The notes under the pieces are model-generated. The model was not told the DNA's origin. It was given only the letters and a program-made list of their open reading frames with translations, and searched no databases. Of a DNA stretch of 64,000 nt, positions 4,317 through 61,866 are shown one piece after another; the first letter of the stretch is position 1, and each line of letters begins with the position of its first letter. Source of the DNA: Candidatus Poribacteria bacterium (GTDB taxonomy: Bacteria; Poribacteria; WGA-4E; PCPOR2b). A program made the translations under genes and the position numbers. Location: contig JAJECO010000097.1 in assembly GCA_022822005.1 (NCBI GenBank), forward strand, positions 62,001 to 126,000, read 5' to 3'.

Positions 4317-5075
4317 TTACTTATCACGTTTCATAAGATAGATGCTATCGAAGTGGCCTGATTGGACAGCGACAACTCGCTCGAGGCGTATCAGTTCTAA
4401 AGTTGCTAAAAATGTAACGATACGGTCAAGCTTGCTGGCAAACTCTGGAAACAGTTCATCGAACCGGATCTGCTCGCCGGACTCAAGCCTTTGCTCTAAG
4501 AACTCCATCTTTTCTTCAACGGTGACTGGTTCTTCTTGAATTTCCTCATAATAATCATCAACCAGAAATTCTCGCTCGGTTATATACTTGAACGCCGAAA
4601 GGAGGTCAAATAGTGTTGCTTTAATCTGTATCTCTCGTGTATCTTCTACGTCTGCGGTTGGATCTATGCTGCGGCCATAGACTTTCTCATGGTCCGTTGC
4701 GTAGTACTCCAGTGTTGTGGCGGCGTCCTTAAATTGCTTGTACTCCAGAAGCTGCTGTACCAGTTCTTCTCGGTCCCTGAAAGTATAAGAGTCATCCGCA
4801 TCCTTTGTGGGCAGGATGATTTGGGACTTGAGGTGAAGCAGCGTCGCTGCCATAACGAGGAATTCCGATGCAACGTCGAGATCTAACAGCTCCATTAAGT
4901 TGAGATATTCTAAATACTGCTCGGTAACTTCTGCGATTGAGATGTCTGTAATGGCCATCTCATTTTGCTGGATTAGATGGAGTAGTAGATCTAGAGGACC
5001 TTCAAAGACATCTAGTTTAATTGCATAAATAGGTTTTGGCGGTTGAGAAGTATCAGTTAAGGGTGTGGGCCCCAT
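4317..5075 (-). CDS. scpA: Segregation and condensation protein A
   Basis: A 252-residue ScpA, the kleisin that bridges the two SMC heads in the bacterial condensin. The N-terminal signature is plain (FEGPLDLLLHLIQQNEMAI, residues 24-42), followed by ITDISIAEVTEQYLEYL and AATLLHLKSQIILP. The C-terminal winged helix ends LELIRLERVVAVQ. The start is ATG at 5075 with a weak AAGG upstream, and the next in-frame Met is far inside the domain. It lies just after a MazEF-type pair and before the R-M genes. Confidence 0.93.
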   Translation of the reverse strand: MGPTPLTDTSQPPKPIYAIKLDVFEGPLDLLLHLIQQNEMAITDISIAEVTEQYLEYLNLMELLDLDVASEFLVMAATLLHLKSQIILPTKDADDSYTFRDREELVQQLLEYKQFKDAATTLEYYATDHEKVYGRSIDPTADVEDTREIQIKATLFDLLSAFKYITEREFLVDDYYEEIQEEPVTVEEKMEFLEQRLESGEQIRFDELFPEFASKLDRIVTFLATLELIRLERVVAVQSGHFDSIYLMKRDK

Positions 5076-8727: not shown

Positions 8728-9525
8728 TTATCTCATTTTTTCGGTGAAGCCCACAACGACATAGGTGCCGCTACGCTGATTCTTCTCGAGCGTGATAAAT
8801 CCCCGACGTTCTGCATCTTCTAACAGTTCACTAAAGGATTTAAATCCATAAGAAGATTCGCTAAAGGAAGGACGCTTCCGCTTTATTGTATCTTTAATCA
8901 TTGAAGACCATAGAACCTCATGGTTTTCACGGATAAGTCCCCGTATGGTGCTGAACAGCAGATCGAAGACCTCCCGCAGCTCTCTTGGGATATTTTGTTC
9001 AGCTCGATGATCTGTGGTGTCATCTTGCTCAAGCTCCTCATAATAGATGAACTCATCACAATTTTCGCTCAAGAGACTTGATGTGGATTCTTTCAACCCC
9101 ATTCCGATGACATACTTGCCGTTTTCCTTGAGTTTAGAAACAAGCGGTGCAAAGTCGCTGTCTCCCGAAATAACGACAAAGGTGTCGATATGTTCCTTTG
9201 AGTAACACAAATCAATGGCATCAACGCAGAGGCGAATATCCGCTGAATTCTTACCGCTCCGTGAACGCCTTGGGATTTCAATTAACTCGATGCCAGCTTC
9301 GTGAAGTGATTGTCGGTGCTTAAAAAAGCGGTGCCAGTCGGCGTAGGCGGTTTTTACAACAACGTTTCCTTTTTCGACCAAGCGTCCCAAAACTTTTTGA
9401 ACATCAAAAGCAGCCTGATCTTCGCGCCTTTTTTTTCCCTTCTGTTTCTCCTCGAATCCGATAGCGAGATTTTCAAAGTCAACAAACATCGCTAGGATTC
9501 GTTGTTCTTGTTGTCCTTCAGGCAT
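8728..9525 (-). CDS. NYN-domain (LabA/DUF88-like) nuclease with C-terminal OST-HTH/LOTUS-type domain
   Basis: A 265-residue protein. The N-terminal PIN-like NYN domain keeps the acidic metal ligands: D16 in FVDFEN, D96 in KNSADIRLCVDA, and D122/D124 in ISGDSDFAPLV. A polar linker follows, and residues about 170-262 read as a winged-helix OST-HTH/LOTUS domain (SYGFKSFSELLEDAERRGF). NYN proteins are predicted RNases and LOTUS domains bind RNA or helicases, so an RNA-processing role is inferred; placement upstream of the tRNA nucleotidyltransferase fits. It is the first gene of the minus-strand run and faces a 519 bp intergenic region. Confidence 0.85.
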   Translation of the reverse strand: MPEGQQEQRILAMFVDFENLAIGFEEKQKGKKRREDQAAFDVQKVLGRLVEKGNVVVKTAYADWHRFFKHRQSLHEAGIELIEIPRRSRSGKNSADIRLCVDAIDLCYSKEHIDTFVVISGDSDFAPLVSKLKENGKYVIGMGLKESTSSLLSENCDEFIYYEELEQDDTTDHRAEQNIPRELREVFDLLFSTIRGLIRENHEVLWSSMIKDTIKRKRPSFSESSYGFKSFSELLEDAERRGFITLEKNQRSGTYVVVGFTEKMR

Positions 9526-10044
9526 TTCGTCTCAGTTCCTTTCATGAAACGGGACGTAAAACGTATTTTGTGGGGAATTCGCCGAACTAACCTGAAAAGG
9601 TCAAATCACTGGTTCAACCGTTAAAGGCTTGGGAAGCATAGTCTATCGGAGTGGAAATCGGCAGGTGAGCATGATATGGGTGTACTTCCTTCAGCGTCAT
9701 ACGCATTTTTGTCGCAATTGTGAAATTTAATTAAACCTGTAACAGAACGGGTCTGTCTAATTTCGCACCCCGCAAGTACTTAATCGTACGTTAATACTAT
9801 CAAGTGTATCAGAAAGTTTGGTCAGAGGCAAGCCATTTTTCGTAATGATTCTGGGAATAGGAGTGGCGTCGTTCCGCAGTAAGATTATGGTGAATTCTAT
9901 AATTACTTATACACTTTCGATACACAACCAACCCCCTAAATCCCGCTTGTCAGGGGGACTTGATGAGGTTTCGATAAGTGGCACTATTGATGAACGTCTA
10001 CATATTTATATCGTTCACCATAAAAGAAAAAGGTACATACAACA
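9526..10044. other. 519 bp divergent intergenic region
   Basis: It lies between the NYN gene (minus) and the histidine kinase gene (plus), so it should hold both promoters. A TATAAT at 9898-9903 could serve the kinase gene, but no good -35 lies 16-18 bp upstream. A TGAAACG heptamer is at 9545-9551 and a C-rich/G-rich repeat at 9932-9957. A short open frame across 9818-10063 overlaps this repeat and the kinase start and does not look coding. No RNA gene seen. Confidence 0.6.
9932..9957. repeat. CCCCCT...AGGGGG palindromic intergenic repeat
   Basis: CCCCCT (9932-9937) pairs with AGGGGG (9952-9957) around a 14 nt loop. It resembles in style the longer C/G-rich core of the inverted-repeat element at 46435-46570, where runs of five to six C and G also alternate. 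Probably a dispersed intergenic palindrome. Confidence 0.5.
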
Positions 10045-12084
10045 ATGGCAAAACAGATACTGATTGTTGAAGATGATAGCGATGTCGTTGGCTACATTGA
10101 ACATCTGTTGAAAAGTTTGGGATATGGCGTCTGTGCTGTCGTTTCGTCCGGAGAAGCAGCAATGCAGAAGGCAGCAGAGGCGCCCCCAGATTTGGCGTTG
10201 GTAGATATGATGTTAGCGGGGGATATGGACGGGATCGCTGTCGCTGACCAGATGCGTACCCGTTTCAATATTCCTGTGGTATACCTGACAGCTTATGTAG
10301 ATCAGCGTTTGCTGCAGCGAGCAAAGATAGCCGAACCTTTTGGCTATGTTCTCAAACCGTTCGCTGAAAGGAGACTGCACCTTAACATCGAGATTGCGCT
10401 TTATAGGCATGAGATGGAGCGGAAATTTAAGGAGAGCGAACAGTGGCTTTCGACGATTCTGAGAAGTATCGGTGAAGGCGTCATCGCTACCGATGAAAAT
10501 GGGCGTGTCCAATTCATCAATTCTGTTGCGGAAGATTTGACGGGTTGGCAGCAGGAGGCTGCCTTTGGCAAGGATTTGGAGGAGGTCTTTAACGTTATTA
10601 GTGAGGGGACAGAGACTCCTATCAAGACACATATCATGGAAGCGCTCCAGGGTGGGATCATTGTCGGTCTAACGGAACCAAACCTCCTCGCCGCCCGTGA
10701 TGGCAAAGAAACTCCTATTGATTACAGTGCTGCTCCCATCAGAAATGACCAGGAGAGCACAACCGGCGTTGTGCTGGTCTTCCGTGATATCACGAGACGT
10801 AAGGAGGCGGAGGAAGCACTAAGATTAACGGCGGATGCATTGCAGAGTCAAACGCGAATCTTGCAATCTATTCTGGATAGTATGGGTGATGGCGTGATTG
10901 TTGCCGATGAAACGGGAAGAATCCTGTTTTTCAACCCTGAGGCTGAAGGGCTTATTGATATTGCAATGAATACACCGCTTGATGATTCACCTGAAACATA
11001 CGGCCTATTTCTTCCCGATACTATCACTCCATTCCCATCGGCAGACCTGCCACTGACACGCGCGATCCACGGGGAGTTTTCAGACAACGTTGAGATGTTT
11101 ATTCGGAATGAGAAGGTGCCACAGGGTGTCTACATTGAAGTTGCTGGCAGTCCATTACAGGATGAATCAGGCAAACGAAGAGGCGGTGTTATCGTTTTTC
11201 GCGATGTTACCGAGCGCAGGCGAACGGACGAAGCACTCGCCCGCGCTTACACGCAGGGCAGATTGGAGATTGTCGATACATTACTCCACAATATTGGGAA
11301 TGCTATCAATAGTGTGACGATAGGGATTGGGACCGTTTACGAAAATTTAGTGAAGAATCGATTGACAAGTCGGCTTAGGGCGTTGGCAGATGCAATCGAA
11401 GGGCATCAGGATGATTTTGGCGATTATGTGACACATCATCCACAAGGGCAGAAGGTTGCTCCTTTTATTATGGGGCTCGCAGATGATTTCGCGATCCAAG
11501 AGAAAAAATTGACAGAGATAGTCGGTCGGGTGCAAGATAGAGCCGAACATATCGCTGATATTGTCAGAATGCAGCGGTCACTTGGCAAGAGCAGTATGTA
11601 TCGTAAGGATATCAATCTTCGCCAGGCAATAGACGATGCGATCACGGTGTTATCGGAGTCTATCAGGAAAAGAGATATTGAGGTGCATGTTGAGTGCAAT
11701 AATACACCGGAAGAGATTCGGACGCAAGAGAGTCAATTTCATCAAATGTTGGTTAATCTTATCAAAAATTCGGTTGAAGCTATAGACGAACTTGCGGCAT
11801 CAATAGGGCTCAGCGAGCCGCCCTCCATCAAAATCCGATGCAATGTTAAATTGACTTCTTTTATTCTTGAGGTAATGGATAACGGCATCGGGATTGAGAA
11901 AGATAAATTCGCGGTCATTTTTGAGGGAGATTATACAACCAAGGAGTCGGGCAGTGGACTTGGTCTCCATTCGATAGCGAACTTCGTTGATGGATGGAAT
12001 GGGAAGATTTACCCGTTAAGCGATGGTCTCGGCAAGGGCGCGACGATACGGGTCATCCTACCGCTTTCTTCTGTCACTCCGTAA
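10045..12084 (+). CDS. Hybrid sensor histidine kinase: REC-PAS-PAS-HisKA-HATPase
   Basis: A 679-residue soluble kinase with no membrane segment. Residues 1-122 are a receiver domain with phospho-acceptor D54 (ALVDMM) and the K of VLKPF. PAS domains lie at about 130-255 and 275-395, each ending VFRD(I/V)T. The phosphorylation helix has H415 in TLLHNIGNAINSV, an unusual box in place of the common HELRTP. The ATP-binding part has an N box at about 570-578 (NLIKNSVEA), DNGIGI, and GSGLGLHS. A receiver at the N-terminus means it can be driven by an upstream kinase. It lies 88 bp before a sigma-54 activator gene on the same strand and probably phosphorylates it. The PAS ligand is unknown. Confidence 0.92.
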   Translation: MAKQILIVEDDSDVVGYIEHLLKSLGYGVCAVVSSGEAAMQKAAEAPPDLALVDMMLAGDMDGIAVADQMRTRFNIPVVYLTAYVDQRLLQRAKIAEPFGYVLKPFAERRLHLNIEIALYRHEMERKFKESEQWLSTILRSIGEGVIATDENGRVQFINSVAEDLTGWQQEAAFGKDLEEVFNVISEGTETPIKTHIMEALQGGIIVGLTEPNLLAARDGKETPIDYSAAPIRNDQESTTGVVLVFRDITRRKEAEEALRLTADALQSQTRILQSILDSMGDGVIVADETGRILFFNPEAEGLIDIAMNTPLDDSPETYGLFLPDTITPFPSADLPLTRAIHGEFSDNVEMFIRNEKVPQGVYIEVAGSPLQDESGKRRGGVIVFRDVTERRRTDEALARAYTQGRLEIVDTLLHNIGNAINSVTIGIGTVYENLVKNRLTSRLRALADAIEGHQDDFGDYVTHHPQGQKVAPFIMGLADDFAIQEKKLTEIVGRVQDRAEHIADIVRMQRSLGKSSMYRKDINLRQAIDDAITVLSESIRKRDIEVHVECNNTPEEIRTQESQFHQMLVNLIKNSVEAIDELAASIGLSEPPSIKIRCNVKLTSFILEVMDNGIGIEKDKFAVIFEGDYTTKESGSGLGLHSIANFVDGWNGKIYPLSDGLGKGATIRVILPLSSVTP

Positions 12085-12172
12085 TGAAACGTGATACAAG
12101 AAAATTAAAGTCTGAAAGTAAATAAAGGCACCTACCGTACAAACGAGCATCGGTAGTTAATAGGTACGTATT

Positions 12173-19308: not shown

Positions 19309-20622
19309 TCATGCTCCGCCTATGTTGAGGCGCGCCAAGACAGCGGCAAGCCGATCCGCTTGTTCTTTCCGTAATCGTTCATAAACTCGATCTGAGATTT
19401 CGCGCTTTTCATGCAGCTCTTCCAGACGAGTGATCATCTCAAGTCGTGCAATCCGTGTCCGTTCAAGGTCGGCGGCATCTAACTTACCGAGCCAACTTGC
19501 ATCAGGTACAACTTGAGATTTCTGGGAGTCGTCGGACGGTTTCGATGTTGGGGGTCGGATCTTGAAAATTGCTGCAACCAAAAAACCGCCTGCAAGCGCT
19601 GCGGCGATTGCTATCAGCGCAATCATTTTTGGGTCTGATGGTTTTCTGGCTGTTTCGCCCGAACTGCGTTGAGGTGACGGTGCGTCGGTTGTAACTCTGA
19701 AGCGTAGATCTACGGTTTGGTTCGTTGATAGTGGCTGCGCTGGATCGGTTGCATAAATGGTGTACACTCGTCCGTGGATCTGCTCCTGACGACCCGCTCC
19801 CAGCATTCTCGATTGTGGCACCAAGGGCATTCCGTCTGAGATGAATACATAGAATTGAGCGGTGTCAAATGTCAGTTTTCGGGAGAGAACTAGATCCGAG
19901 TCAACAACGTGCATCAGGTAGAAAAATCCGAGTTGATGTGTACCCGGGGCTAACGGTTGGCTGGCAACTAACCGGTTTGCAGTTACGTCGAGTTCTTGTT
20001 TGAAGGTCTGGTCTATTTGAAGGTTTTCATGACCATTTGGTAGATTAAGATGCACACCTGCGGATTGATTATCTATTGATGTTTGAAAAGCCAGTTCACT
20101 GGTATTTTCGACTTGGATGAGTTCCAGCACGGAAACCGCGCCATCTGGAGCGTGGTCTTCCGGCGGGGGACTAATGATAAGTGTATGCTGTCGAATTTTT
20201 ATCTGTGCGGGGTCCTCCGTGAACGCTCCAATCTCAATATTGACTTTGATGTGAGGCAGCCACTCCGACAGAACGATATCCTGTTCGATATATTCTTCGC
20301 CTTCATAATTGGCTGAGACAGCGTAATGGACATCGAAGGCTGTCGAGAGATTGTCGAAGACATAAGTCCCGTTATTGTCTGTCACCGTCTCCTGTTGCTG
20401 GACGTCTTCGCCTTCCCGGCGGATCTGTAAAACCACTTGCTGTTGAGAGAGTAGTAGGTTCTCCCCCTTATTTATGACTTGACCTTCGATTTTGCCGATG
20501 TCCCTTTGTCCAATGGCGGAGGGAAGACAAATTAAAGCCGTGAATATGAGGAATGAAACGTGAAACGTGAAACGTGAAAAGCATTTGTTATCTGGCTGTT
20601 CGGCGTTACAGTTATCGCGCAT
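19309..20622 (-). CDS. Exported membrane-anchored protein with carboxypeptidase-regulatory-like domain, in the ccm cluster
   Basis: A 437-residue protein. Residues 1-38 form a signal peptide whose n-region is partly encoded by a heptamer repeat (SRFTFHVS). A carboxypeptidase-regulatory-like beta domain follows (GKIEGQVINKGENL to about residue 140), then a further beta domain. One membrane helix lies near residues 333-355 and ends a periplasmic part. The tail is a charged helix (about 385-437) resembling the helical end of CcmI-like proteins. ATG 20622 has AGGA 8-9 bp upstream. Position between the CcmI-like gene and ccmA suggests a role in cytochrome maturation, but I do not recognise the family. 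Confidence 0.75.
   Translation of the reverse strand: MRDNCNAEQPDNKCFSRFTFHVSFLIFTALICLPSAIGQRDIGKIEGQVINKGENLLLSQQQVVLQIRREGEDVQQQETVTDNNGTYVFDNLSTAFDVHYAVSANYEGEEYIEQDIVLSEWLPHIKVNIEIGAFTEDPAQIKIRQHTLIISPPPEDHAPDGAVSVLELIQVENTSELAFQTSIDNQSAGVHLNLPNGHENLQIDQTFKQELDVTANRLVASQPLAPGTHQLGFFYLMHVVDSDLVLSRKLTFDTAQFYVFISDGMPLVPQSRMLGAGRQEQIHGRVYTIYATDPAQPLSTNQTVDLRFRVTTDAPSPQRSSGETARKPSDPKMIALIAIAAALAGGFLVAAIFKIRPPTSKPSDDSQKSQVVPDASWLGKLDAADLERTRIARLEMITRLEELHEKREISDRVYERLRKEQADRLAAVLARLNIGGA
20554..20581. repeat. Tandem heptamer TGAAACG, about four copies
   Basis: Three exact copies (20554-20574) and a fourth reading TGAAAAG (20575-20581). On the minus strand three heptamers make seven codons, RFTFHVS, within the signal peptide of the gene at 19309-20622. 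Confidence 0.85.
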
Positions 20623-30916: not shown

Positions 30917-31903
30917 TTACCAATTCCTAGATACACCGTAGTCCGCAAGCTGTGCAAGGGCGTTTCTCGCAGGCGTTTCAGGGAGCACGTTCAAAGCAGA
31001 TTTTGCGTGGTTGGCATACTCTTGAGCGACGCCGCGGCAATGCCCCTGAATCTGATACCGCTCAAGGAGGGATTCGATCCACTCGATTGCCCCAGCGTCA
31101 TCCATTTGTAGACTAAAAAGCCGTTCGAGTTCTGTTCGCTCTTCGGTTGTACAGACTTCGCGTGCATAGATCATCGGAAATGTCAGTTTTCCGTCACGCA
31201 GGTCGTTAAATGGTTCCTTGCCCAGTGTTTCTCCATCTGCCACAAGGTCGAGAAGATCGTCGATGATCTGAAATGCTGCGCCGATAGCCTCGCCATATTC
31301 TGTTAGCGCTTGGAGGTTTTGTGAATTCTGCGTTCCGAGTACCGCTCCCATTGCACACGAAGCGGTGATGAGTTTACCAGTTTTCAGGTCGATGATTTTT
31401 AGGTAGTCGTCCTGCGAAATGCTGAAATCCCCATTTTTGTAGGCGTGGATGACTTCCCCTTCACACATTGAATGTGTCGCATCGGAGAGGAGTGCCATCG
31501 CGAGATCATCAGCACGTCGGTTGACAAGCATCGAAAGCACACGGGCATGGAGATAATCCCCAACAAGCACCGCCACCTTGTTGCCCCATTTAGAGTGCAA
31601 CGTTTCACGTCCCCGCCGGATGGGGGCTTCATCGAGAACATCGTCGTGGACGAGCGATGCGACATGGATGAGCTCGACGGTTGCTGCAAGCGTATGGGCA
31701 TCTTCGCCCTGGTATCCACATGCTTTCGCGGAGAGCAGCAGCAGGATTGGACGTAGCCGCTTCCCACCGCCTTCGACTACATGCTGGACAGCGAGATCGA
31801 CGAAATCGTAATGACTCGTGGTTTTCTCGCTGAGTTTCTTTTCAACAGCTTGCAGATCTTTTGTAATAAAATGGCAAATTTCGCTAAGACTTGGTGTTGA
31901 CAT
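30917..31903 (-). CDS. Trans-polyprenyl diphosphate synthase (IspB/HepT-like)
   Basis: A 328-residue long-chain prenyl synthase. The first Asp-rich motif is DDVLDEAPIRRG (D87, D88, D91) and the second is IIDDLLDLV. GGGKRLRP near residue 46 binds the diphosphate. It lengthens farnesyl diphosphate with isopentenyl units for quinone side chains or heme O/A. The chain length is not given by sequence here. It lies between hemL and the Met8-like gene. Confidence 0.9.
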   Translation of the reverse strand: MSTPSLSEICHFITKDLQAVEKKLSEKTTSHYDFVDLAVQHVVEGGGKRLRPILLLLSAKACGYQGEDAHTLAATVELIHVASLVHDDVLDEAPIRRGRETLHSKWGNKVAVLVGDYLHARVLSMLVNRRADDLAMALLSDATHSMCEGEVIHAYKNGDFSISQDDYLKIIDLKTGKLITASCAMGAVLGTQNSQNLQALTEYGEAIGAAFQIIDDLLDLVADGETLGKEPFNDLRDGKLTFPMIYAREVCTTEERTELERLFSLQMDDAGAIEWIESLLERYQIQGHCRGVAQEYANHAKSALNVLPETPARNALAQLADYGVSRNW

Positions 31904-31909
31904 CGGATG

Positions 31910-31923
31910 TGAAACGTGAAACG
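31910..31923. repeat. Two tandem TGAAACG heptamers
   Basis: Exact copies at 31910-31916 and 31917-31923, in the short gap before the polyprenyl synthase start codon. Confidence 0.75.
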
Positions 31924-35036: not shown

Positions 35037-38000
35037 TTAACGCAAAATTGCTAACCGACCGATTTCTTTGATCCTGCGTCCATCTGTTTCAACGATTACT
35101 TTGTAGAAGTAGACACCATTTGCCAAGCGCTCGCTATTCTCATCGCGGGCGTCCCAATCGGTCTCGTTGTAGCCCCGTCTCGCTGAGGCATCTTCGATTG
35201 TCCGGATGAGCCGACCGCTCACGGTATAGATTTTGACTGTAACCTGATCTGGTGCTTGTGCGAGGTTGTAGGTAAAAACTGTGTTGGTGCGTATGGGATT
35301 CGGCACGTTCAGCAGGTGGGTGATGGATACGGGTTCCTCAAGATGGAAACGGTATATTTGCGATTTGAGTGTATTTCCACTGGTATCCGTGGCAAGGATT
35401 TGGAGTTGGTATTCGTCATTTGGCAGATTGGGTTCAAAGTCGATCCATGTTTGCGTAGGTTGGGTAACATCGAACTGAAACTCGTAATGATTTTCAGGTA
35501 GTGGAAACAGGGGGTTGCTTGTTGAACCGAAGGCAAATTGAACCGTGGTTGGATTAATTCCACTTTCGTCTGCGATCAGAATCTCAAATTTCGGCTGTTC
35601 GCGTATAACCGTTCCATCCGTCAACATTTCATTGTTGAGAAGGATTTCAACGGTTGGCGGTTCAAGGTCGGGTTGCTCTGCCACAGAGAAGCGAAAATCA
35701 CGGAATCCAGCCTCACCGCCAAACGTATTTCCTGCCAAATCATTTACCCTGATCCTAAAGCGGTAGTGACCGATAAACAGTGTTGGCTTATAGCGGATGG
35801 AGGTTGACGTTACCTGCTTGCCACTAATCTCAAGGTTCTTAATTGTCTCGAATGCTCCTCCGTCCTTACTCATCCCTAAGCTGAAACTGTCCATATCCAC
35901 TCCGTTTTCGTCTGTCAAGAGAAGCGAGATTTGAGGACGGGGCGAGATAGTGCTACCGGGAGTAAGGGCTTCGCCATCTATCCACAGTTGGACTTTGGGT
36001 GGCTCCTGATCTGAACTTCGCATAAGGGCGTAAGTCGAGGGTGCGCTTGTCTTAGTGGTTACGATGCCTACGGTCATCTTGCTGAACTTGAACTTGTCTC
36101 CAAACTCGAAGGGTAAGTTGTCGGTGGCTTTGAAGCCCAAGTCCGTCGAGGACGAGACGCGCACCTCGATTCCGAGGTTGTCAAGGATCAAAGGCTGATT
36201 GACCTGCCCCACAGCAGGATTTCCCGCCGTATCGAGAGCCAGCTCGTTTCGCGCATTGCGTAGCTCGAAATGTTTGCTATCCCGAAAAAAAATCAACCAG
36301 TCACCGAGGTCGGGCTGCCCGTCCTTGCCAGCAATCTGATCTTTCGTTCTGATGTCCACGTGCGCAGAACCTCTGCCACGATTGGTGTTCCACACTCCAG
36401 AAACGCCGGTGCTTCCGTTTGGGCTAACATCGGTTTCAAAGGTCAACACATCACCGAATTCAAAGACCAGATTTCTGTTTAGGGTGTCTGTTTCCCCAAG
36501 GCGGGGAATCTCTAATTCGATCCCCAATTCCCCATCTCTGAGGGTTTGACCGATGTGTCCGGTTTGGTCGAGTTCTTCGATCTCACGGTTGCCTTTTCTT
36601 TGCAGGAGGACGCGATACCGGTCTGGATCAAGGAAAAAGATTGCCCACCTTCCCGACGGCGTGAGGCTTGGATCGGCGCGAATATAAGAGGGCTGCAATT
36701 TTTGGATGCTTGTGTTTTCGGCTTGTGTGGGGGTTACAAAGTTCTCTGAAACTAAGTTCCCGGTATTATCGCGCAATACTTCTGAGGGCAGCCGTTTCCA
36801 AGCGTTGATGCTCGGTTTCCATTGATAGATCGCGAGATCGCTTTGTAAGGCGGGGTTAAATGCCACCGCTCCGGGATTCAGTCCCTGATTTGCCTGTAAA
36901 TGATCTTTCAGAGCCCCCAGATCTAAACGGAACTTGAGTGACGCTGGCTTGACCAACCGCTCGGTATCAGAATATAACTCGATTTGATATGCTCCGATTT
37001 GCGAGACAGGTCGGCGGGGAAGTGGGACAAAACGGAGGTCAGGTTGAGATGAGATGAGCGGTTCGATTGTATTGACGGACAGCGTTGTTTTGGGATTGAG
37101 GACAGTTCCGATTGGGAATACGACCTCAAATATCCGATCCAAACTGAGCGCGGTGAGTTCTTCGTCAGCCTTCAGCGTAAATTCGTTGACTACAAAAGAT
37201 CCGGACCCTTTGTTATCAAGCGAGCGGGGTTCATCCAGCTTACCGATAACTCCATCCTCATGATCGTCGCTGGGCGATTCTGGGTCCGCGAAGACATAGA
37301 TTCGATGAAAGCCGGTGGACAAAGGTTCAGGGAGACTCAATGTCGCTTTCGTTTCTTGAAGGTGTGTCTCTCCCGAATGCCACGCATCGGCTCTGACCGA
37401 GACACGCCCAAGTATATCTGCTTCCGGGTCGATCTGGCCATCCCCATTCCGATCGGGATCCCCCTCTGCGAACCAAACCTCGATCGCGGTATCGATTTTC
37501 TTGCCGCCATCGTTCACCAGTTTGGCGGTCAGTGTATGTGCTTGTTTATCTTTTGAGAATGTGTAGCGGAGGGGAGCGGTCACTGCAGAGGCGATGGCAA
37601 TGTTTGCCCCTTCGGGCACCTTGAGAGATTTTTTCTCGGTTCTGATGGTATGATTGGTGTGGTCGGTCACTACGATTTGATACTGTATAGTTTGCCCACC
37701 TTTCGGCAGGGGGATTGCGGTTTGCAGCTTGTACCACCGACCACCGTTCACCGCAGGAGTTGGTGGTGCCGGGTGGGGTATCATTTCGACCGTATGTTCC
37801 TTGGATTCTCCGCTATCGCTCCAAGCTGCTTTTATCAGCTTCAGTCCTGTGGGTCCTTCGTTGTCCGCTATTAGTGCCGAAAGATTTAGTGTGTTGATAT
37901 CTGGGTCAAGATCTTCACGGATGTCGAGAATAGCTGGCTGATACGTCCAGAATTTTGTCCCGCCCACCGCTGTCCGCTGATCGTCGAGAGCAAGGAGACG

Positions 38001-41000
38001 AACGATACCCTGTCCGGGGGCGACATTCTCTGGAACGGGAATACGGATCGCGCCAAAATCGCCTTGCCACACTTGGATGCTATTCTTTTGCTGCTGCAGA
38101 TCATTAAGTGAATTATCATCCAAATCGTTGGCGAACAGTGCCAGCGCCGACATCGTCCCAGTGCTGAAATCGGTCGCCTTGCGAAACGCTGCCGTTCCCG
38201 TGATCGGTGAAGGTTGGTACTGTCCAACAGTATTATGGCGGATGATCAGTTCTTTGCTCGGATCGACTGCAACGTTCTCCAACTCGACTTGAATTTCCAA
38301 TTCCGGCACGGCGAGACGCGTTGCTGGATCACCGAAGAGGGTGTACTGCGTGGCGGTAGGGATCCACAGTTGAGGGGCAGTCGTCATGAACTGCGTTTTT
38401 GCATCAGTGACAATTGCACCAAGAGTTGAAGGTCTAACGGTGAAGATAGAGGTAAAGAGATTTCTATCGAATGCTGCATTGACCGTTGCAAAGGTCAAAC
38501 GGGTTGCGCTCAAGACACCAATAGCACCGGCGCTGCCCATCAGAAATTGTTCGCTTAAACTGCGTTGCCCGAATTGTAGCGGCTGATCAAACTGCCCGTT
38601 GAGACATGTCGTTGTGATGATGAACGGCGGGTGTGCATTTCGTAGATTCTCTGCGTCTGCAATGCGGAGAATGCCCTCATCTGCCCACGTTTGAGTGCCG
38701 CCGTGCCCCGAATATTCGACGACGAGGACCCCCTCATTAATTGTTGATATGATAGCTTGGTTGGTCCGTTCTGGACTCTCGATCCGCCGCAGATATACCT
38801 TGCGGGTATCGTAGCCGACGGGAATATACTCCTCAATGAGTTGTTCGCTGTTTCGCTCAAAGATTTCGTCCCCGACGTTATTTACCGCGTTATCCGCTAC
38901 CTGCATCAATCTGCCCTGCCATAAACCGGGTTGATGCTTTGCTTCATAATTGATAATCTTTTTCACCATAGCATCCAACTCGTGCGGCGATTGTACTGGG
39001 AGTCGCCCGATAAACATATCTGGCAGTGGATCGTCGCCGCTAACGGTGACAAAATGGTGATCCATAGCGGTTTCCCCACTCGCTGGTGCCCAACCGTGAA
39101 AAGTTGGTACGTAGATAGGGTGGAGATCATAATCTCTGTTCAGTACCTCTCGATATAACTGGACAGTTGCGCTTTTATAGTCGTAGTGGGCGTCGCCGAC
39201 TAACAGGACGTATGTGGGCTTAGGGGTACGCCAATGGATGTAGGCGTGACGTAAAAACTTTTGGATTGCCAGCGGATTAAAAATTCCGTGATTGAACTGA
39301 TCATATACCTCCTCGATGTCAACAACCTTGACGGCTAAGCCTTGTGACCGTCGGAAGGTTGCGAGCGCTTGGATACTATTGATAAAATTGCTGTGGGAGA
39401 TAATGATATAGTCTGCTTGATTGGTGGGGTTGCTGATTACTGATGGCTTGGCGGGGATAATATGATCCACCCGAGCATATCTCTCTCGCTCAACGACAAA
39501 ATAACTGGTCGGCGATGTCAAATTATCCTCAAAGATTAGCTGAAAATTGCCATCCTTATGTTCAACCCGACCGTTAGCGAGTTTTGCAACCATACTTCCA
39601 TCGTGGGTCTGATATACATCAATATTACGGTGATGAAGATTTGTCACACGGTACTGAACCCGTCCGATTCTTCTTGGCTCGGTTTCTGAGTTAAATTCGA
39701 GCACTCCCTCAAACGCTTCAAAGGTGCGCCAATAATCAATTTCAAACCAATCCAGATAAAAGTCAGGCACGCCTGCCGGTGTGTCATTTCGATCTTCGGC
39801 TATGATCTTCAGAACGTTCGTATCCCCCGGCTTACTAAATCGCGACATTTCGATCTTACGCGGAACTAACGGCCCAGCTTGCTGCCGCCACTCGGCGACT
39901 CCCCCAAGCTGCGCGCCGTTAAACAGAATACGCGCCTGATGTCTGGCGTTCCGTTTGCGCGATGCACCTTGGAACTTAATCCGAATTTCAGCATTTCGAT
40001 TCACTTGCCCTCTCGGTGCTATATGAGGCAGTTGAACCGAGAAATCTTTCTGGTTGAACCTATCGTCTGCTCCACCTGTCAAACTTTCCCAGAAATAGTG
40101 GTCTGCCCCTTCAGATTTCACATCAAGCAGCTGATCATATTTGGGGTTTTGTTCGAAGTGCAAGGTTTTCTTGAAAGCGAGTGGAGTGGGCGCATTCAGC
40201 ATTTTTGGGGTCGCGTCTCTAACGGGTACCTGTGAACGACCAACACCACCCCAACTCAGCCAATACACGTTAGTATCGGTGAATCTATCCCCGATTGGTG
40301 CGTCCCCGTAAAACACAACCGAGTCGTCCCGATTGAATCTACTGTCTGTGTTGTCGTCAAAGACATGAAGACCGACCCGGCGTCCACGATTTTCCATCTT
40401 TAGGGTCTTAAGTTCAATATCCTCGGGGGTGGCACCGGCGCGTCTGAGTTCGCTATATGTGATTTGATACAGCCCTGTTCGGCTGATCAGGATTTTATAT
40501 CTCTGGGAAGGGAGGGTAGCCTGCTGTGCCACGGGGGCAGCAGGGGCACTTTGGGGCAAGCGCCTCCATACTTTTGCCTGACTGTAATTCAGTAGTTTTG
40601 CCTGAAAGAGCTGCTCAAAAGCCTGCGACGGTTCTATCACAAAGGAAGGCGCAGCAAATCGGTCTGAATTCCGATGGGATTGGGTGGATGAAGAGGTGGC
40701 ATTGAAGGCGATTCGGATTAACAATTCGTGACAGATTTTGAGCTGCGATTTAGCGGGGTTATACTGAATCGGCTGGATTTGGAGTCGTGCGATCTGTTGT
40801 CCACGGATGAGTCCAATCGGTCTAACTTCGACAAGTTTGGCCGGGTACGGACGATCCCGTCGGTAAAAGTTCGTGTCAATGATGGGTGTTGGTTGGGGAT
40901 TGGTGAGACCCGATGGTTGGGTGGGGATAATGCGCTCGGTTTGGCGGACTTCAAGACGGGAATCAATCACGGTTGCATATGGTGCGGCATCAATGGGAAT

Positions 41001-41321
41001 CCCAATTAGTTGTGAGTAGGCAGGCAAACTGGGGCGTCCCACCTCCGTCATGAAGGTTGCGCCTGCGAAGGAAATCTGAGTGAAGGTGCGTTCATTAATT
41101 TCTTGCGAGTTGAATCGCAGGGTCGGTGCCTCAAATTTGACGAGGAGGCTATCCGTGTCTGCTTGGACAATATGGAGCGGAGATTTGGCGGCGATAGTGG
41201 CGGCGGAGAGCCAGAAGATTAGGAGCGTGTAGAATGTGAAACGGGATACGTAAGCCGTGGTGCGTAAATGAACCGCTGATACCGGATCCGGTTTTTGATT
41301 GCCCATTACTATAGCCGTCAT
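35037..41321 (-). CDS. Giant secreted C25 (gingipain-type) cysteine peptidase with FlgD-like C-terminus
   Basis: About 2,094 residues. A long n-region and hydrophobic segment (SRFTFYTLLIFWLSAATIAA) form the signal peptide. A propeptide-like part is followed by the C25 peptidase: LLVGDAHYDYKS, catalytic His in EYSGHGGTQTW and Cys in TTTCLNGQFDQP (near residues 870 and 905). Then come CARDB-like beta domains, two repeats of about 110 residues (each opening W-IFF-D and ending FEFGD), two Ig-like repeats ending in FEI/ISL plus acidic loops, and a FlgD-like tail (VPNPIRTNTVFTYNL to end), as in type IX-secreted proteins. ATG 41321 was chosen; a TTG at 41375 overlaps the upstream gene. Confidence 0.88.
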   Translation of the reverse strand: MTAIVMGNQKPDPVSAVHLRTTAYVSRFTFYTLLIFWLSAATIAAKSPLHIVQADTDSLLVKFEAPTLRFNSQEINERTFTQISFAGATFMTEVGRPSLPAYSQLIGIPIDAAPYATVIDSRLEVRQTERIIPTQPSGLTNPQPTPIIDTNFYRRDRPYPAKLVEVRPIGLIRGQQIARLQIQPIQYNPAKSQLKICHELLIRIAFNATSSSTQSHRNSDRFAAPSFVIEPSQAFEQLFQAKLLNYSQAKVWRRLPQSAPAAPVAQQATLPSQRYKILISRTGLYQITYSELRRAGATPEDIELKTLKMENRGRRVGLHVFDDNTDSRFNRDDSVVFYGDAPIGDRFTDTNVYWLSWGGVGRSQVPVRDATPKMLNAPTPLAFKKTLHFEQNPKYDQLLDVKSEGADHYFWESLTGGADDRFNQKDFSVQLPHIAPRGQVNRNAEIRIKFQGASRKRNARHQARILFNGAQLGGVAEWRQQAGPLVPRKIEMSRFSKPGDTNVLKIIAEDRNDTPAGVPDFYLDWFEIDYWRTFEAFEGVLEFNSETEPRRIGRVQYRVTNLHHRNIDVYQTHDGSMVAKLANGRVEHKDGNFQLIFEDNLTSPTSYFVVERERYARVDHIIPAKPSVISNPTNQADYIIISHSNFINSIQALATFRRSQGLAVKVVDIEEVYDQFNHGIFNPLAIQKFLRHAYIHWRTPKPTYVLLVGDAHYDYKSATVQLYREVLNRDYDLHPIYVPTFHGWAPASGETAMDHHFVTVSGDDPLPDMFIGRLPVQSPHELDAMVKKIINYEAKHQPGLWQGRLMQVADNAVNNVGDEIFERNSEQLIEEYIPVGYDTRKVYLRRIESPERTNQAIISTINEGVLVVEYSGHGGTQTWADEGILRIADAENLRNAHPPFIITTTCLNGQFDQPLQFGQRSLSEQFLMGSAGAIGVLSATRLTFATVNAAFDRNLFTSIFTVRPSTLGAIVTDAKTQFMTTAPQLWIPTATQYTLFGDPATRLAVPELEIQVELENVAVDPSKELIIRHNTVGQYQPSPITGTAAFRKATDFSTGTMSALALFANDLDDNSLNDLQQQKNSIQVWQGDFGAIRIPVPENVAPGQGIVRLLALDDQRTAVGGTKFWTYQPAILDIREDLDPDINTLNLSALIADNEGPTGLKLIKAAWSDSGESKEHTVEMIPHPAPPTPAVNGGRWYKLQTAIPLPKGGQTIQYQIVVTDHTNHTIRTEKKSLKVPEGANIAIASAVTAPLRYTFSKDKQAHTLTAKLVNDGGKKIDTAIEVWFAEGDPDRNGDGQIDPEADILGRVSVRADAWHSGETHLQETKATLSLPEPLSTGFHRIYVFADPESPSDDHEDGVIGKLDEPRSLDNKGSGSFVVNEFTLKADEELTALSLDRIFEVVFPIGTVLNPKTTLSVNTIEPLISSQPDLRFVPLPRRPVSQIGAYQIELYSDTERLVKPASLKFRLDLGALKDHLQANQGLNPGAVAFNPALQSDLAIYQWKPSINAWKRLPSEVLRDNTGNLVSENFVTPTQAENTSIQKLQPSYIRADPSLTPSGRWAIFFLDPDRYRVLLQRKGNREIEELDQTGHIGQTLRDGELGIELEIPRLGETDTLNRNLVFEFGDVLTFETDVSPNGSTGVSGVWNTNRGRGSAHVDIRTKDQIAGKDGQPDLGDWLIFFRDSKHFELRNARNELALDTAGNPAVGQVNQPLILDNLGIEVRVSSSTDLGFKATDNLPFEFGDKFKFSKMTVGIVTTKTSAPSTYALMRSSDQEPPKVQLWIDGEALTPGSTISPRPQISLLLTDENGVDMDSFSLGMSKDGGAFETIKNLEISGKQVTSTSIRYKPTLFIGHYRFRIRVNDLAGNTFGGEAGFRDFRFSVAEQPDLEPPTVEILLNNEMLTDGTVIREQPKFEILIADESGINPTTVQFAFGSTSNPLFPLPENHYEFQFDVTQPTQTWIDFEPNLPNDEYQLQILATDTSGNTLKSQIYRFHLEEPVSITHLLNVPNPIRTNTVFTYNLAQAPDQVTVKIYTVSGRLIRTIEDASARRGYNETDWDARDENSERLANGVYFYKVIVETDGRRIKEIGRLAILR

Positions 41322-41352
41322 GCTTTTCGGTTGGGAAATATATTCCCACACT

Positions 41353-42870
41353 TCACTCAAAGATCTCAATCTCAAGCTGATTCAGGGTCCGCATCACCCC
41401 TTCGCCGAATTCCAGCATGGAGTTGGACTCAAACTCGCTGCCGGCAAGTTGAATATGATTTGCATCTGCTTGGATTTGACCGAGCGTTGGCTCCATTGCT
41501 ACCCACTCACCTACATATACTTCGGGCCAAAAATGGTAGTAAAAAGCATCACCTTGGAATACAAGTCCCGCACAAACCCGTGCAGGGATACCGACGGAAC
41601 GTGCCATTCCAATCAGTAGGACTGTATGTTCTGTACAATCTCCTTCCAGCGATTCTAATGTTTGTAATGCCGATCCGAATCCAACCTTTAGGTTCTTGTC
41701 ATGGATATTTTCGTACACCCATCTGCACAGCTTCTGTGCGGATTTCCAAGCATTAGTCTCTCCATCAAGTACCTCGACAGCTTTCGCCCGAACCGTTGGG
41801 TGTTCCGCTTGGATGTACACAGTTGATTTCAAGAATTGTGCGAGTTCCTTATCCTCGTGCTGGTCTTGTATGGGCAGATTCAGCGTTTCCGCTCGATCTA
41901 TCATGGGGACATTGACCTCAAGTATTCCGTGGCGTGGGTCGCTATCAATCGTCAGTTTCTGGCGGCTATCTATTATTACTGCCTTTTCCAATTCTCCCCC
42001 AGTCAATCGCAGCCGTGCCTTGAGACGACGCGTACCGGGTGTTGGCCGTTCTCCTTGGGCGAAGATTTTTGTGTTCAGGATAACATCCACCTCTCCTGAT
42101 TCGCCGAGTGCTGTTTTCATATCGGTCTTTGCCAAGACCATCTTGAGTCCCATCAGCCCGACTTCCAGCCGATATATTGTGCCATTGTGTCCCAACCACT
42201 GCTTTGTCGTAAGCCCTCCCATGATGTCCATCGTGTAGTCGATGATGTAGACCGGCTCTATCTTGCCGTCAAATTCGAGTTGATCTTCTTGCAGGACTTT
42301 GATGTCCGTTTTAACGGGTTTCATGAGGTCCAGATTAAATACGCGCAGCGTATACGCATCGCCGACTTTGATGCTGCGTCGCAGCAGAAAATAACCGATC
42401 ATCTGTTCAAAAATTGTGTCGGCTGGAATCGACGTTTCACTCTGAGTTGTTTTTCCTGCGAGGCTCGTTTCAAGGTAAGCAACACCATCTTTGATACGCC
42501 CTTCAACCTGTTTTTCTTGTCTTGTCTCATTGGAGGTAGAAATAAAATAGCGAGGAACGAGATCCATACCGACATACGCGATCCGGGTTGTTGTGAGTCT
42601 TAACCCGGTGCCAGTACGCTTGAGGTCCATCACCATGTCAGCGCGCACTCGGATAGCTTCCTCGTCTTCATATCTTGATTTTTCCGTATAGAGATGGGCA
42701 TACCCGATTTTCGTGCCCATCAGTGTTAAATTTAACCAATCGTCTTGAGGTAGCTGCATCATTTTCTCAATCTCCGCCGGATCGACTTCCACCCATTCCC
42801 CTACAGCATCTCCAATTGAAATAACAAGCAAACAACAGGTGAAAAGTATCTGTTGTTTCATAAAGGACAT
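41353..42870 (-). CDS. Secreted transglutaminase-like (papain-fold) protein
   Basis: A 505-residue protein. ATG 42870 has GGAGAGG upstream; an in-frame start at 43032 would cross the promoter region. Residues 1-23 are a signal peptide. A long beta-rich N-terminal part precedes the transglutaminase core (about 395-490): Cys in LEGDCTEHTVLL, His in YYHFWPEVYVG, and the third site in WVAMEPTLGQ, where Glu stands in place of the usual Asp. The gene ends 31 bp before the C25 peptidase ATG, so both are probably transcribed together and act outside the cell. Confidence 0.88.
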   Translation of the reverse strand: MSFMKQQILFTCCLLVISIGDAVGEWVEVDPAEIEKMMQLPQDDWLNLTLMGTKIGYAHLYTEKSRYEDEEAIRVRADMVMDLKRTGTGLRLTTTRIAYVGMDLVPRYFISTSNETRQEKQVEGRIKDGVAYLETSLAGKTTQSETSIPADTIFEQMIGYFLLRRSIKVGDAYTLRVFNLDLMKPVKTDIKVLQEDQLEFDGKIEPVYIIDYTMDIMGGLTTKQWLGHNGTIYRLEVGLMGLKMVLAKTDMKTALGESGEVDVILNTKIFAQGERPTPGTRRLKARLRLTGGELEKAVIIDSRQKLTIDSDPRHGILEVNVPMIDRAETLNLPIQDQHEDKELAQFLKSTVYIQAEHPTVRAKAVEVLDGETNAWKSAQKLCRWVYENIHDKNLKVGFGSALQTLESLEGDCTEHTVLLIGMARSVGIPARVCAGLVFQGDAFYYHFWPEVYVGEWVAMEPTLGQIQADANHIQLAGSEFESNSMLEFGEGVMRTLNQLEIEIFE

Positions 42871-59755: not shown

Positions 59756-60418
59756 TTGGACCTTGAGCAGAAAACAGAGTTAGTTTCTGACGCCTTAGAA
59801 AAACTTTACGGTGCACCCGAACCGGACATAGAGGAAGATGTGCTTGAGTGTTTGATACTTACAGTTTTGTCCCAGAACACAAACGATGTCAATCGTGATA
59901 AAGGGTTCGCAGTCCTCAAAGAACGCTATCCGACGTGGGAAGAGGTACTAGATGCCGATGTGGAGGACATCGCGGACGCGATCAAGATTGCGGGGTTGAG
60001 CGGCCAGAAGAGCCGCACAATCAAGAATTTCTTGACATGGCTCAAGGCAGAATATGGTGAGTTGGATCTGGAATTCATCCGTGAAATGGAGACCAAAGAC
60101 GCAATACCACTGCTATCTCAGCACAAAGGCATCGGTATCAAGACTGTGTCCGTCACGCTTGCGTTTGCTTGTGGTCGTGATGTGTTCCCTGTGGATACGC
60201 ACGTTTTGCGGATCAGCAAACGGCTTGGGTTCGTGCCATCTAATTGTACTGCGGAGAAAGCACATGAATTGATGCCCCAAATCATTCCCAAAGGCGAAGC
60301 GTATCCGTTCCATATGAACCTTATCGCATTTGGACGCCAGATCTGCGACGCACGTAAGCCGAAATGCGATCAGTGTCCCATCACGACACATTGTCTCTAC
60401 TATCGGGGTGAGTTGTAA
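59756..60418 (+). CDS. Endonuclease III-like DNA glycosylase
   Basis: A 220-residue HhH-GPD glycosylase. The helix-hairpin-helix is HKGIGIKTVSVTLAF, with K in GIGIKT as the catalytic Lys and D in FPVDTHVLRIS as the catalytic Asp. The 4Fe-4S cluster motif C-x6-C-x2-C-x5-C is complete at the C-terminus. It removes oxidised pyrimidines and nicks the abasic site. TTG 59756 has GGAGG 6 bp upstream; an overlapping ATG at 59750 is out of frame. Confidence 0.88.
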   Translation: MDLEQKTELVSDALEKLYGAPEPDIEEDVLECLILTVLSQNTNDVNRDKGFAVLKERYPTWEEVLDADVEDIADAIKIAGLSGQKSRTIKNFLTWLKAEYGELDLEFIREMETKDAIPLLSQHKGIGIKTVSVTLAFACGRDVFPVDTHVLRISKRLGFVPSNCTAEKAHELMPQIIPKGEAYPFHMNLIAFGRQICDARKPKCDQCPITTHCLYYRGEL

Positions 60419-60429
60419 AACGTGAAGCG
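60416..60429. repeat. TAAAACG-TGAAGCG heptamer pair
   Basis: Two degenerate heptamers directly after the stop codon of the glycosylase gene; see findings. Confidence 0.5.
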
Positions 60430-60485: not shown

Positions 60486-61793
60486 TTGCCGAATATAGAA
60501 CATCGTACCGTAATTATTGTGGGCGGGGGACCGGCTGGTCTTCCGCTTGCTGTGGTGTTGGGAGGTTGGCACCCTTACTTTCGTGGAAGTCGCATGTTCA
60601 GCCTGCGCTACCCACAGTTGGCTGCGGGCCTTCAGCAGATCCAAGGAACGCTTCTGGGATTAGATTTCAAAGGGATAGCCAGAAACGTCCCACCCGTAGA
60701 TCTCTTCCGACTCCTCCATCACCCCAGACAGCTGTTTGAAGAACTCGCGCAGATCGCGATGGAATTTCGCCAAGAAACGCCGATAGATTACCTACTCATC
60801 ACGCAGGAGAAGGTCGGCGGCTTGTGGAACAATGTGCCCCAAAATCTCCTGACCCTTTCTCCGGGACAGTGGATGGAGTTCCCTTTCTATCCGCTGGCGC
60901 AACATATTGAAGAACAAGGGATTAATTTAAATGTCAACGATCTGATAATCAAGGGGGATTTGCTACACTACTATCACAGTATTCCCACTCGATTTGGACA
61001 GACAGACCGCATCCGTACCGGCGAAAAGGTCGTCCGTATTGAACCGCACGAGCGTGGTTTTCTGGTGACGAGCAGGGATGTGGGGACGGAAACAACCCAT
61101 CAATATACTGCCAAGTATCTCGTTTATGCCGTTGGTCAGCGGTGCATCCTGCGACGACTCGATGTGCCAGGAGAAGATCTCCCGTTTGTGGCGAAAAGTT
61201 ACGATCGGCCGGAGAATTTCCCCGGTGAGCGTGTCATTGTCGTTGGTGGCGGCAGGTCGGCGGATTGGGCGGCGACGGAGCTTTACGATGCGGGCAAGCA
61301 GGTGTATTATGTGATGCGTCAGTCGTTTGAGAATCACTGGCGGTTAGTCAGTGATAGCCGCTACGGGTTGCCGTATTACGCTCGGATTGCCGAAATTATG
61401 GAGAGCCAAGATCCCCGTTTTCAGACATTGTACCAAGCCCACATCCGAGAGATTAAAGAAGGGACCTCCGCCGGTCTGATAACGGTAAATCATCAGGGAG
61501 AGGAACAGGTTATCGAAGCCGAGCATGTTATCTTGGAGATTGGTGGTAGTGCAGACTACTCTCTCTTTGAGGGGTTTGAACCGTTGGAACAGGTCGAAAA
61601 ATATGATAACTACCGTTTCCAGCTGCATCAGGTGATGACACATCCCCATAACTACGAGGCAGTCAATATCCCGAACCTCTATATGGGCGGGTATCTTGCG
61701 TCGGGGATTGGGTTGGTGGTCATCGCCATGCACGGAACAACTTACGCGATTGCTGGGGATGTCCTTCAAAAAGAGGGGCTTATCAATTTTTGA
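60486..61793 (+). CDS. FAD-dependent NAD(P)-binding oxidoreductase
   Basis: A 435-residue flavin oxidoreductase. FAD motif VIIVGGGPAGLPLAV near residue 9; second dinucleotide motif VIVVGGGRSADWAATEL near residue 253; closing LYMGGYLASGIGLVV. It is like flavin-containing monooxygenases or thioredoxin-reductase-type enzymes; substrate not evident. The start is TTG 60486 with GAGGTGA upstream. Confidence 0.85.
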   Translation: MPNIEHRTVIIVGGGPAGLPLAVVLGGWHPYFRGSRMFSLRYPQLAAGLQQIQGTLLGLDFKGIARNVPPVDLFRLLHHPRQLFEELAQIAMEFRQETPIDYLLITQEKVGGLWNNVPQNLLTLSPGQWMEFPFYPLAQHIEEQGINLNVNDLIIKGDLLHYYHSIPTRFGQTDRIRTGEKVVRIEPHERGFLVTSRDVGTETTHQYTAKYLVYAVGQRCILRRLDVPGEDLPFVAKSYDRPENFPGERVIVVGGGRSADWAATELYDAGKQVYYVMRQSFENHWRLVSDSRYGLPYYARIAEIMESQDPRFQTLYQAHIREIKEGTSAGLITVNHQGEEQVIEAEHVILEIGGSADYSLFEGFEPLEQVEKYDNYRFQLHQVMTHPHNYEAVNIPNLYMGGYLASGIGLVVIAMHGTTYAIAGDVLQKEGLINF

Positions 61794-61845: not shown

Positions 61846-61866
61846 TGAAACGTGATGCGTGAAACG
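61846..61866. repeat. TGAAACG-TGATGCG-TGAAACG heptamers
   Basis: Three heptamers, the middle one with two changes, in the intergenic region after the FAD oxidoreductase. Confidence 0.7.

Follow-up and report, generated by a model that had tools for sequence, protein, structure and literature searches.

The heptanucleotide TGAAACG forms a real family of short tandem arrays in the genome to which the analysed stretch of DNA belongs (the stretch of 64,000 nucleotides is called the window below; the genome, G000, is a 6.0-Mb draft of 97 contigs). The family is of a known kind, the heptameric dispersed tandem repeat, and is unnamed in the literature searched: a survey for the TGAAACG unit or the peptide RFTFHVS returned no relevant paper and none naming the repeat. 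The 7-nt word is repeated head to tail in perfect or near-perfect tandem, mostly as 2-4 units, and its many copies are dispersed and mostly intergenic, as in repeats of the STRR type. In the 6.0 Mb of the genome, the exact double unit, TGAAACGTGAAACG, was found 33 times and the reversed control not at all; with up to two mismatches allowed, the numbers are 374 and 46. The window holds 24 single TGAAACG heptamers versus 12.75 ± 3.24 expected, and 0 of 100 shuffles gave a count as high; such an excess over shuffled sequence had been named beforehand as the test of the original prediction. The real signal, however, is the tandem form. Among perfect tandem heptamers, TGAAACG ranks first by a wide margin in both sampled genomes of the genus: it accounts for 95 of 204 tandem-heptamer positions in 1.2 Mb of G000, where the next heptamer accounts for 12, and for 41 of 123 in 0.8 Mb of G004, the second genome of the genus used for tandem counts, polarity, and coding arrays. 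The second commonest unit in G000, TGATGCG, is two changes away from TGAAACG.

The following arrays and associated genes were identified in the window:

4320..4333, reverse strand: array TGAAACG TGATAAG at the 3' end of gene 4317-5075, overlooked in the original prediction
9545..9551, forward strand: single, weak TGAAACG, 20 nt upstream of the start of gene 8728-9525 (reverse strand)
12085..12098, forward strand: TGAAACG TGATACA, immediately 3' of the TAA stop of a PAS/histidine kinase gene (10045-12084)
19309..20622, reverse strand: gene for a 437-aa exported protein with a weak CarboxypepD_reg match, below the Pfam cut-off
20554..20581, forward strand: array of three TGAAACG and one TGAAAAG, within the N-terminus of the 437-aa gene; the minus strand reads SRFTFHVS
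30917..31903, reverse strand: polyprenyl synthetase gene (PF00348, E=4.8e-72), downstream of the next array
31910..31923, forward strand: array of two TGAAACG, between the Shine-Dalgarno sequence and the start codon of the polyprenyl synthetase gene
35037..41375, reverse strand: gene for a giant C25 peptidase with propeptide and FlgD_ig domains (PF01364, E=1.9e-89)
41237..41250, forward strand: degenerate array of one exact unit and GGATACG, within the N-terminus of the C25 peptidase gene; the minus strand reads SRFTFY
59756-60418: endonuclease III-like gene, which ends in the next array
60416..60429, forward strand: degenerate array TAAAACG TGAAGCG; the endonuclease III-like gene uses its TAA as stop codon
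61846..61866, forward strand: array TGAAACG TGATGCG TGAAACG, 52 nt past the stop of gene 60486-61793

The TGAAACG sequences that had been reported for the window are present, and the genome-wide count confirms the repeat. Of the units quoted at 41237-41264, one TGAAACG and GGATACG hold, and the further two are too weak to count. The copies at 12085 and 9545 exist, the former as one exact unit plus TGATACA and the latter as a lone unit that by itself is not above chance. The minus strand had been said to read RFTFHVS in any copy set, and all three reverse frames of an array do give this cyclic peptide, with no stop or common start codon; the forward strand has TGA stops in all three frames. In the 437-aa protein, the array supplies the n-region of the predicted signal peptide. 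The 5' flank of the array at 61846..61866 is a dispersed module. The C25 peptidase (2112 aa, with a C-terminal FlgD_ig domain) adjoins a transglutaminase-core protein (41353-42861).

In the phylum of G000, 85 genomes were searched for the 21-mer of the repeat, and it was not found in 77 of them. TGAAACG was carried by all six genomes of the genus and by two sister genera of the same family; the third genus of this family (G006) and 31 genomes from other families of the order lacked the repeat. In contigs of other genomes, the 21-mer occurred in at least 117 stretches, compared with about 0.1 matches expected by simple arithmetic for an exact 21-mer in 257 Gb on both strands. By our own assignment of phylum labels, the matches listed represent more than 10 unrelated phyla, among them Chloroflexota, Desulfobacterota, Verrucomicrobiota, Gemmatimonadota, Nitrospirota, Acidobacteriota, Bacteroidota, Pseudomonadota, Planctomycetota, Omnitrophota, and Patescibacteria. 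Among these matches, TGATGCG again ranked second among the units of Chloroflexaceae Prado088, Desulfococcaceae HSG8, and two Anaerolineae. Since most of the foreign records are metagenome-assembled, single placements could be binning errors, which is unlikely where a genome has many arrays. The presence of the same unit and the same second unit across phyla needs either transfer or convergence, neither of which is demonstrated. A larger module common to these phyla was considered and rejected: the other intergenic repeat words of G000 were essentially absent at the foreign loci, and the heptamer alone was shared. Viral contigs contained 16 stretches in 2.9 million versus 3 for the control and thus gave no sign of a phage-borne TGAAACG element. 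Three Anaerolineae/Chloroflexi loci (L093, L103, and L144) contain inverted TGAAACG pairs with similar loops (TGACCAGAGA..TCA), which suggests a hairpin element in that group.

The arrays are strongly polar with respect to gene borders. With genes in G000 and G004 called by our own hexamer model rather than taken from annotation, 54 of 67 arrays in G000 were intergenic, although intergenic DNA makes up 17.8% of the sequence. The nearest gene border lay on the 5' side of the array in 47 of these 54 (p=2e-8); in 30 of them this border is a sense-gene stop, and in 17 it is an antisense-gene start. Random placement in the same gaps gave 27 of 54, with a maximum of 39 in 2000 runs. Further copies near start or stop codons had been expected, and 16 arrays of G000 began within 10 nt of a sense stop (2.5 expected), while seven overlapped the stop codon themselves. 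In G004, the border was on the 5' side for 17 of 22 arrays. Arrays without stop overlap retained the polarity, 23 to 5 in G000 and 10 to 3 in G004, so that coding filters alone are insufficient to explain it. Other repeat families of G000 mostly displayed weaker polarity or none; the exception is the word GGTTCATT, which is often located 3' of an array and was polar in 33 of 42 cases. Flanks repeated elsewhere in G000 were found on the 5' side of 15 of 51 arrays versus 28 of 51 on the 3' side (p=0.016). At the foreign loci listed, where cruder longest-ORF calls were used, sense stops on the 5' side outnumbered antisense stops on the 3' side by 55 to 7. The end phase of arrays, considered as a mark of a fixed initiation point, was strongly non-uniform; this phase is explained by the variant units, in which CGTGA stays constant and the next two bases differ, and it is no evidence for templated initiation.

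Cyanobacterial STRR are lineage-specific short tandem heptanucleotide repeats dispersed between genes, for which we know of no mobiliser. TGAAACG is of the same kind, with a different unit and different hosts. The closest likeness in polarity is to the GGGAATC and GGGGA(C/T)T heptamers of Xanthomonas and Nostoc, which are polar and lie nearer to the 5'-side ORF whatever its direction (Rehm 2015, PMC4692102). TGAAACG arrays show this same proximity; they are likewise tandem, dispersed, mostly intergenic, and variable in unit number between relatives. In contrast to those G-rich heptamers with quadruplex potential, TGAAACG has no G-run and contains stops in all forward frames. The GGGAATC-type heptamers contain no stop codon, yet the same polarity was reported for them, and the polarity of heptamer repeats may therefore be general (Rehm et al. 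2015, PMC4692102). The TAACTGA direct repeats of Beggiatoaceae, Cyanobacteria, and Bacteroidetes (MacGregor 2015, PMC4679880) resemble TGAAACG, in the part of that account used here, in their short heptamer arrays, forward stops, open reverse frame, coding copies at protein ends, and occurrence in distant phyla without explanation. In the same part, TAACTGA in BOGUAY is mostly forward and directly upstream of starts, and no link to signal peptides is reported; TGAAACG has such a link, its forward arrays follow stops, its reverse arrays precede starts, and a sense start was the nearest border in only 2 of 54 arrays in G000. Similar to the approximately 150-bp Rickettsia palindromic elements (review PMC10969869), TGAAACG is a small intergenic-type repeat found in frame within protein-coding genes; unlike them, its coding copies are short arrays located almost only beside hydrophobic segments.

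Comparison with sister genomes revealed how the arrays come and go, as the original prediction had proposed to examine in orthologues with and without the repeat. The orthologue partners were G003 (about 93% identical) and G001, G002, and G005 (about 80-88%), all syntenic in parts; G004 was left out as too diverged and not syntenic. Arrays arrive within mosaic inserts of about 110-250 bp. One insert of about 190 bp in G000 (G0C51:162564-162809, L196), with the array near one end, is missing in G003 and G005; an array-bearing insert of about 135 bp was found in G003 only, and further inserts are located at 181174, 197749, and 213245. The insert at 162564 has ATACC..GGTAT-like ends, and the sequence flanking its array recurs beside the arrays C93:132084 and C20:112281. 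It is possibly a MITE: empty sites were found and the ends are of the kind described, while most arrays lie outside this insert and target duplication is ambiguous. At G0C1:126611-126701 (L167), just past the window end, G000 has a heptamer array and G003 an unrelated CAGAGACGCAGAG hairpin repeat. Several older arrays are common to all or most species. Unit number varies between relatives at one site, as in STRR-type repeats. In the 437-aa gene, G000 has four units, G003 and G005 have three together with an additional 70 nt, G002 has degenerate ones, and G001 retains no more than a trace; the array of the polyprenyl synthetase gene has one unit in G001, two in G000, and three or more in G002, G003, and G005.

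Intergenic regions on contigs C58, C93, and C51 of G000 (L148-L207) are mosaics of further dispersed words. These include CCCCCTTGTCAGGGGG, with 60 copies in 1.2 Mb of G000 and none in G004, GGGGCGACATGT, with 50 copies, and CCCGATAAATCGGG, GCAAAGGCGCAAAG, and GGTTCATTNGTTCATT palindromes.

In 2.0 Mb of G000 and G004, N-terminal arrays preceded signal-peptide-like hydrophobic cores in six of six genes, against a background of 23% of genes; these calls were made by hydropathy and not by a trained signal-peptide predictor. Since two of the six came from the original prediction and one lipoprotein start is a corrected gene call, the independent evidence amounts to three to four genes. The four genes beyond the window encode two lipoprotein-like and two ordinary signal-peptide-like N-termini, and L027 and a locus of G001 are further N-terminal coding cases. 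The link between arrays and hydrophobic segments is wider than signal peptides. Among the matches listed, eight of eight internal coding arrays in other phyla lay directly before hydrophobic segments of apparent membrane proteins, for which the 17% background at foreign loci is an imperfect control because it measures N-termini, and prepilin-like leaders of a Verrucomicrobium carry the array. One internal coding array of G000 (C93:237060) is not beside a membrane segment. Foreign arrays listed and classed as N-terminal coding were followed by a hydrophobic stretch in just 5 of 17 cases; many of these 17 frames are probably not genes. In apparent membrane proteins at L086, L096, L097, and L126, several intergenic repeats in translated form (TTDDRRRTTDG, GQVAGGRWQVAGG, and IRNTQYAIRNT) lie beside RFTFHV and make up loops.

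The original prediction held that an intergenic repeat spreads and is taken up as signal-peptide sequence. Its first half stands, given the dispersal, the inserts, and the N-terminal copies before hydrophobic cores: the RFTFHVS leaders are an intergenic repeat partly translated in signal-peptide-like N-termini. Active selection of the repeat as a signal sequence is not shown, and passive tolerance explains these copies equally well, since the reverse frame is stop-free and supplies arginine beside the hydrophobic core. The strong polarity and the mechanism of spread are points beyond that prediction.

Dispersal in inserts, change of unit number, polarity, and the restriction of arrays relative to coding sequence lead us to regard TGAAACG as probably a dispersed selfish-type heptameric intergenic repeat, which is tolerated at gene borders and in membrane-adjacent leader sequence. 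New sites would be seeded by the copying of short intergenic modules, as MITE-like inserts and/or by template switching between repeats, and arrays might then grow or shrink by slippage. Coding filters would hold forward arrays at gene ends, since TGA occurs in all their frames and allows them no coding position other than the end of a gene. Reverse arrays, which lack stops and common start codons, would be admitted into leader sequence and can become part of an N-terminus. An array would persist where sequence varies freely and positive charge beside a hydrophobic segment is welcome, such as signal-peptide n-regions and loops before membrane helices. No mobilising enzyme was identified among Ku, RVT_1, and Y1_Tnp, which counts against the selfish-repeat reading, as do the polarity beyond what coding filters explain, its occurrence in the stop-free GGGAATC-type heptamers, and the sharing of units across phyla. 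Y1_Tnp, the transposase paired with hairpin repeats in REP/RAYT systems, counted overall and including any RAYT subgroup, was present in 38 of 40 genomes irrespective of arrays and thus shows no correlation with them.

A broader proposal, which we put forward only tentatively, is that heptamer arrays at gene borders, anchored on their 5' side and facing inward, are made in many bacterial phyla by one general, hitherto undescribed process, for example template switching of free 3' ends into arrays already present. TGAAACG would be one case, with GGGAATC of Xanthomonas and GGGGAYT of Nostoc as others, and such arrays would repeatedly come to flank signal peptides and membrane helices on the cytosolic side.

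It is rather unlikely that the polarity results from array making at breaks, where free 3' ends would anneal by microhomology (e.g., CG-TGA) and copy an array with its 3' neighbours or, in a variant, would be extended by a dedicated templated process. Either way, both break ends would carry inward-facing arrays. This agrees with the 5' anchoring whatever the gene direction, the repeats on the 3' side, inverted pairs that face inward only, the other heptamer families of the same polarity (Rehm 2015, PMC4692102), and the filling of site G0C1:126611 by different repeat families in G000 and G003. Against it, the array is internal and not at a junction in some inserts (162564 and 213245), Ku was found in 0 of 40 genomes, and the RVT_1 reverse transcriptase is absent from G001, a single-contig genome that carries arrays. 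A version based on reverse transcriptase or Ku fails in G001, and telomerase-like or Ku-based end healing is unsupported.

Similarly improbable is a functional RNA or DNA hairpin between gene ends (TGAAACGn-loop-CGTTTCAn), whose arms the arrays would form and which would act as a terminator-like or mRNA 3'-end element. Among the matches listed from other phyla, inverted array pairs faced inward in 26 cases and outward in none, and an inverted copy lay within 150 nt on the 3' side of 88 of 226 arrays compared with 6 on the 5' side; arrays also sit directly after stops. However, only 1 of 66 arrays in G000 has such a partner, the T content of 0.31 in the 8 nt past the hairpins gives no clear U-tract, and the whole element is missing at orthologous sites.

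Phase variation, in which 7-nt units in signal peptides would switch the frame of exported proteins, is very improbable: unit number at the 437-aa gene does differ between species and 7 is not a multiple of 3, but the array-bearing orthologues of G000, G003, and G005 are all in frame, arrays are short and mostly outside coding sequence, and the associated genes include housekeeping ones, such as those for polyprenyl synthetase and the endonuclease III-like protein. Chance or low-complexity background has a negligible probability as the source of the copies, some of which (9545 and 12085) are single units, in view of the 33 versus 0 placements, the dominance of TGAAACG among tandem heptamers, and its clade specificity.

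The dispersal of heptamer repeats in bacteria, and the recurrence of their words in unrelated phyla, have no accepted answer. The TGAAACG family offers presence/absence sites between close sisters and a strict polarity in common with other heptamer families. For annotation, N-termini of the RFTFHVS type should be taken as translated repeats and not as a protein motif. The family is a natural record of non-coding DNA becoming leader peptides.
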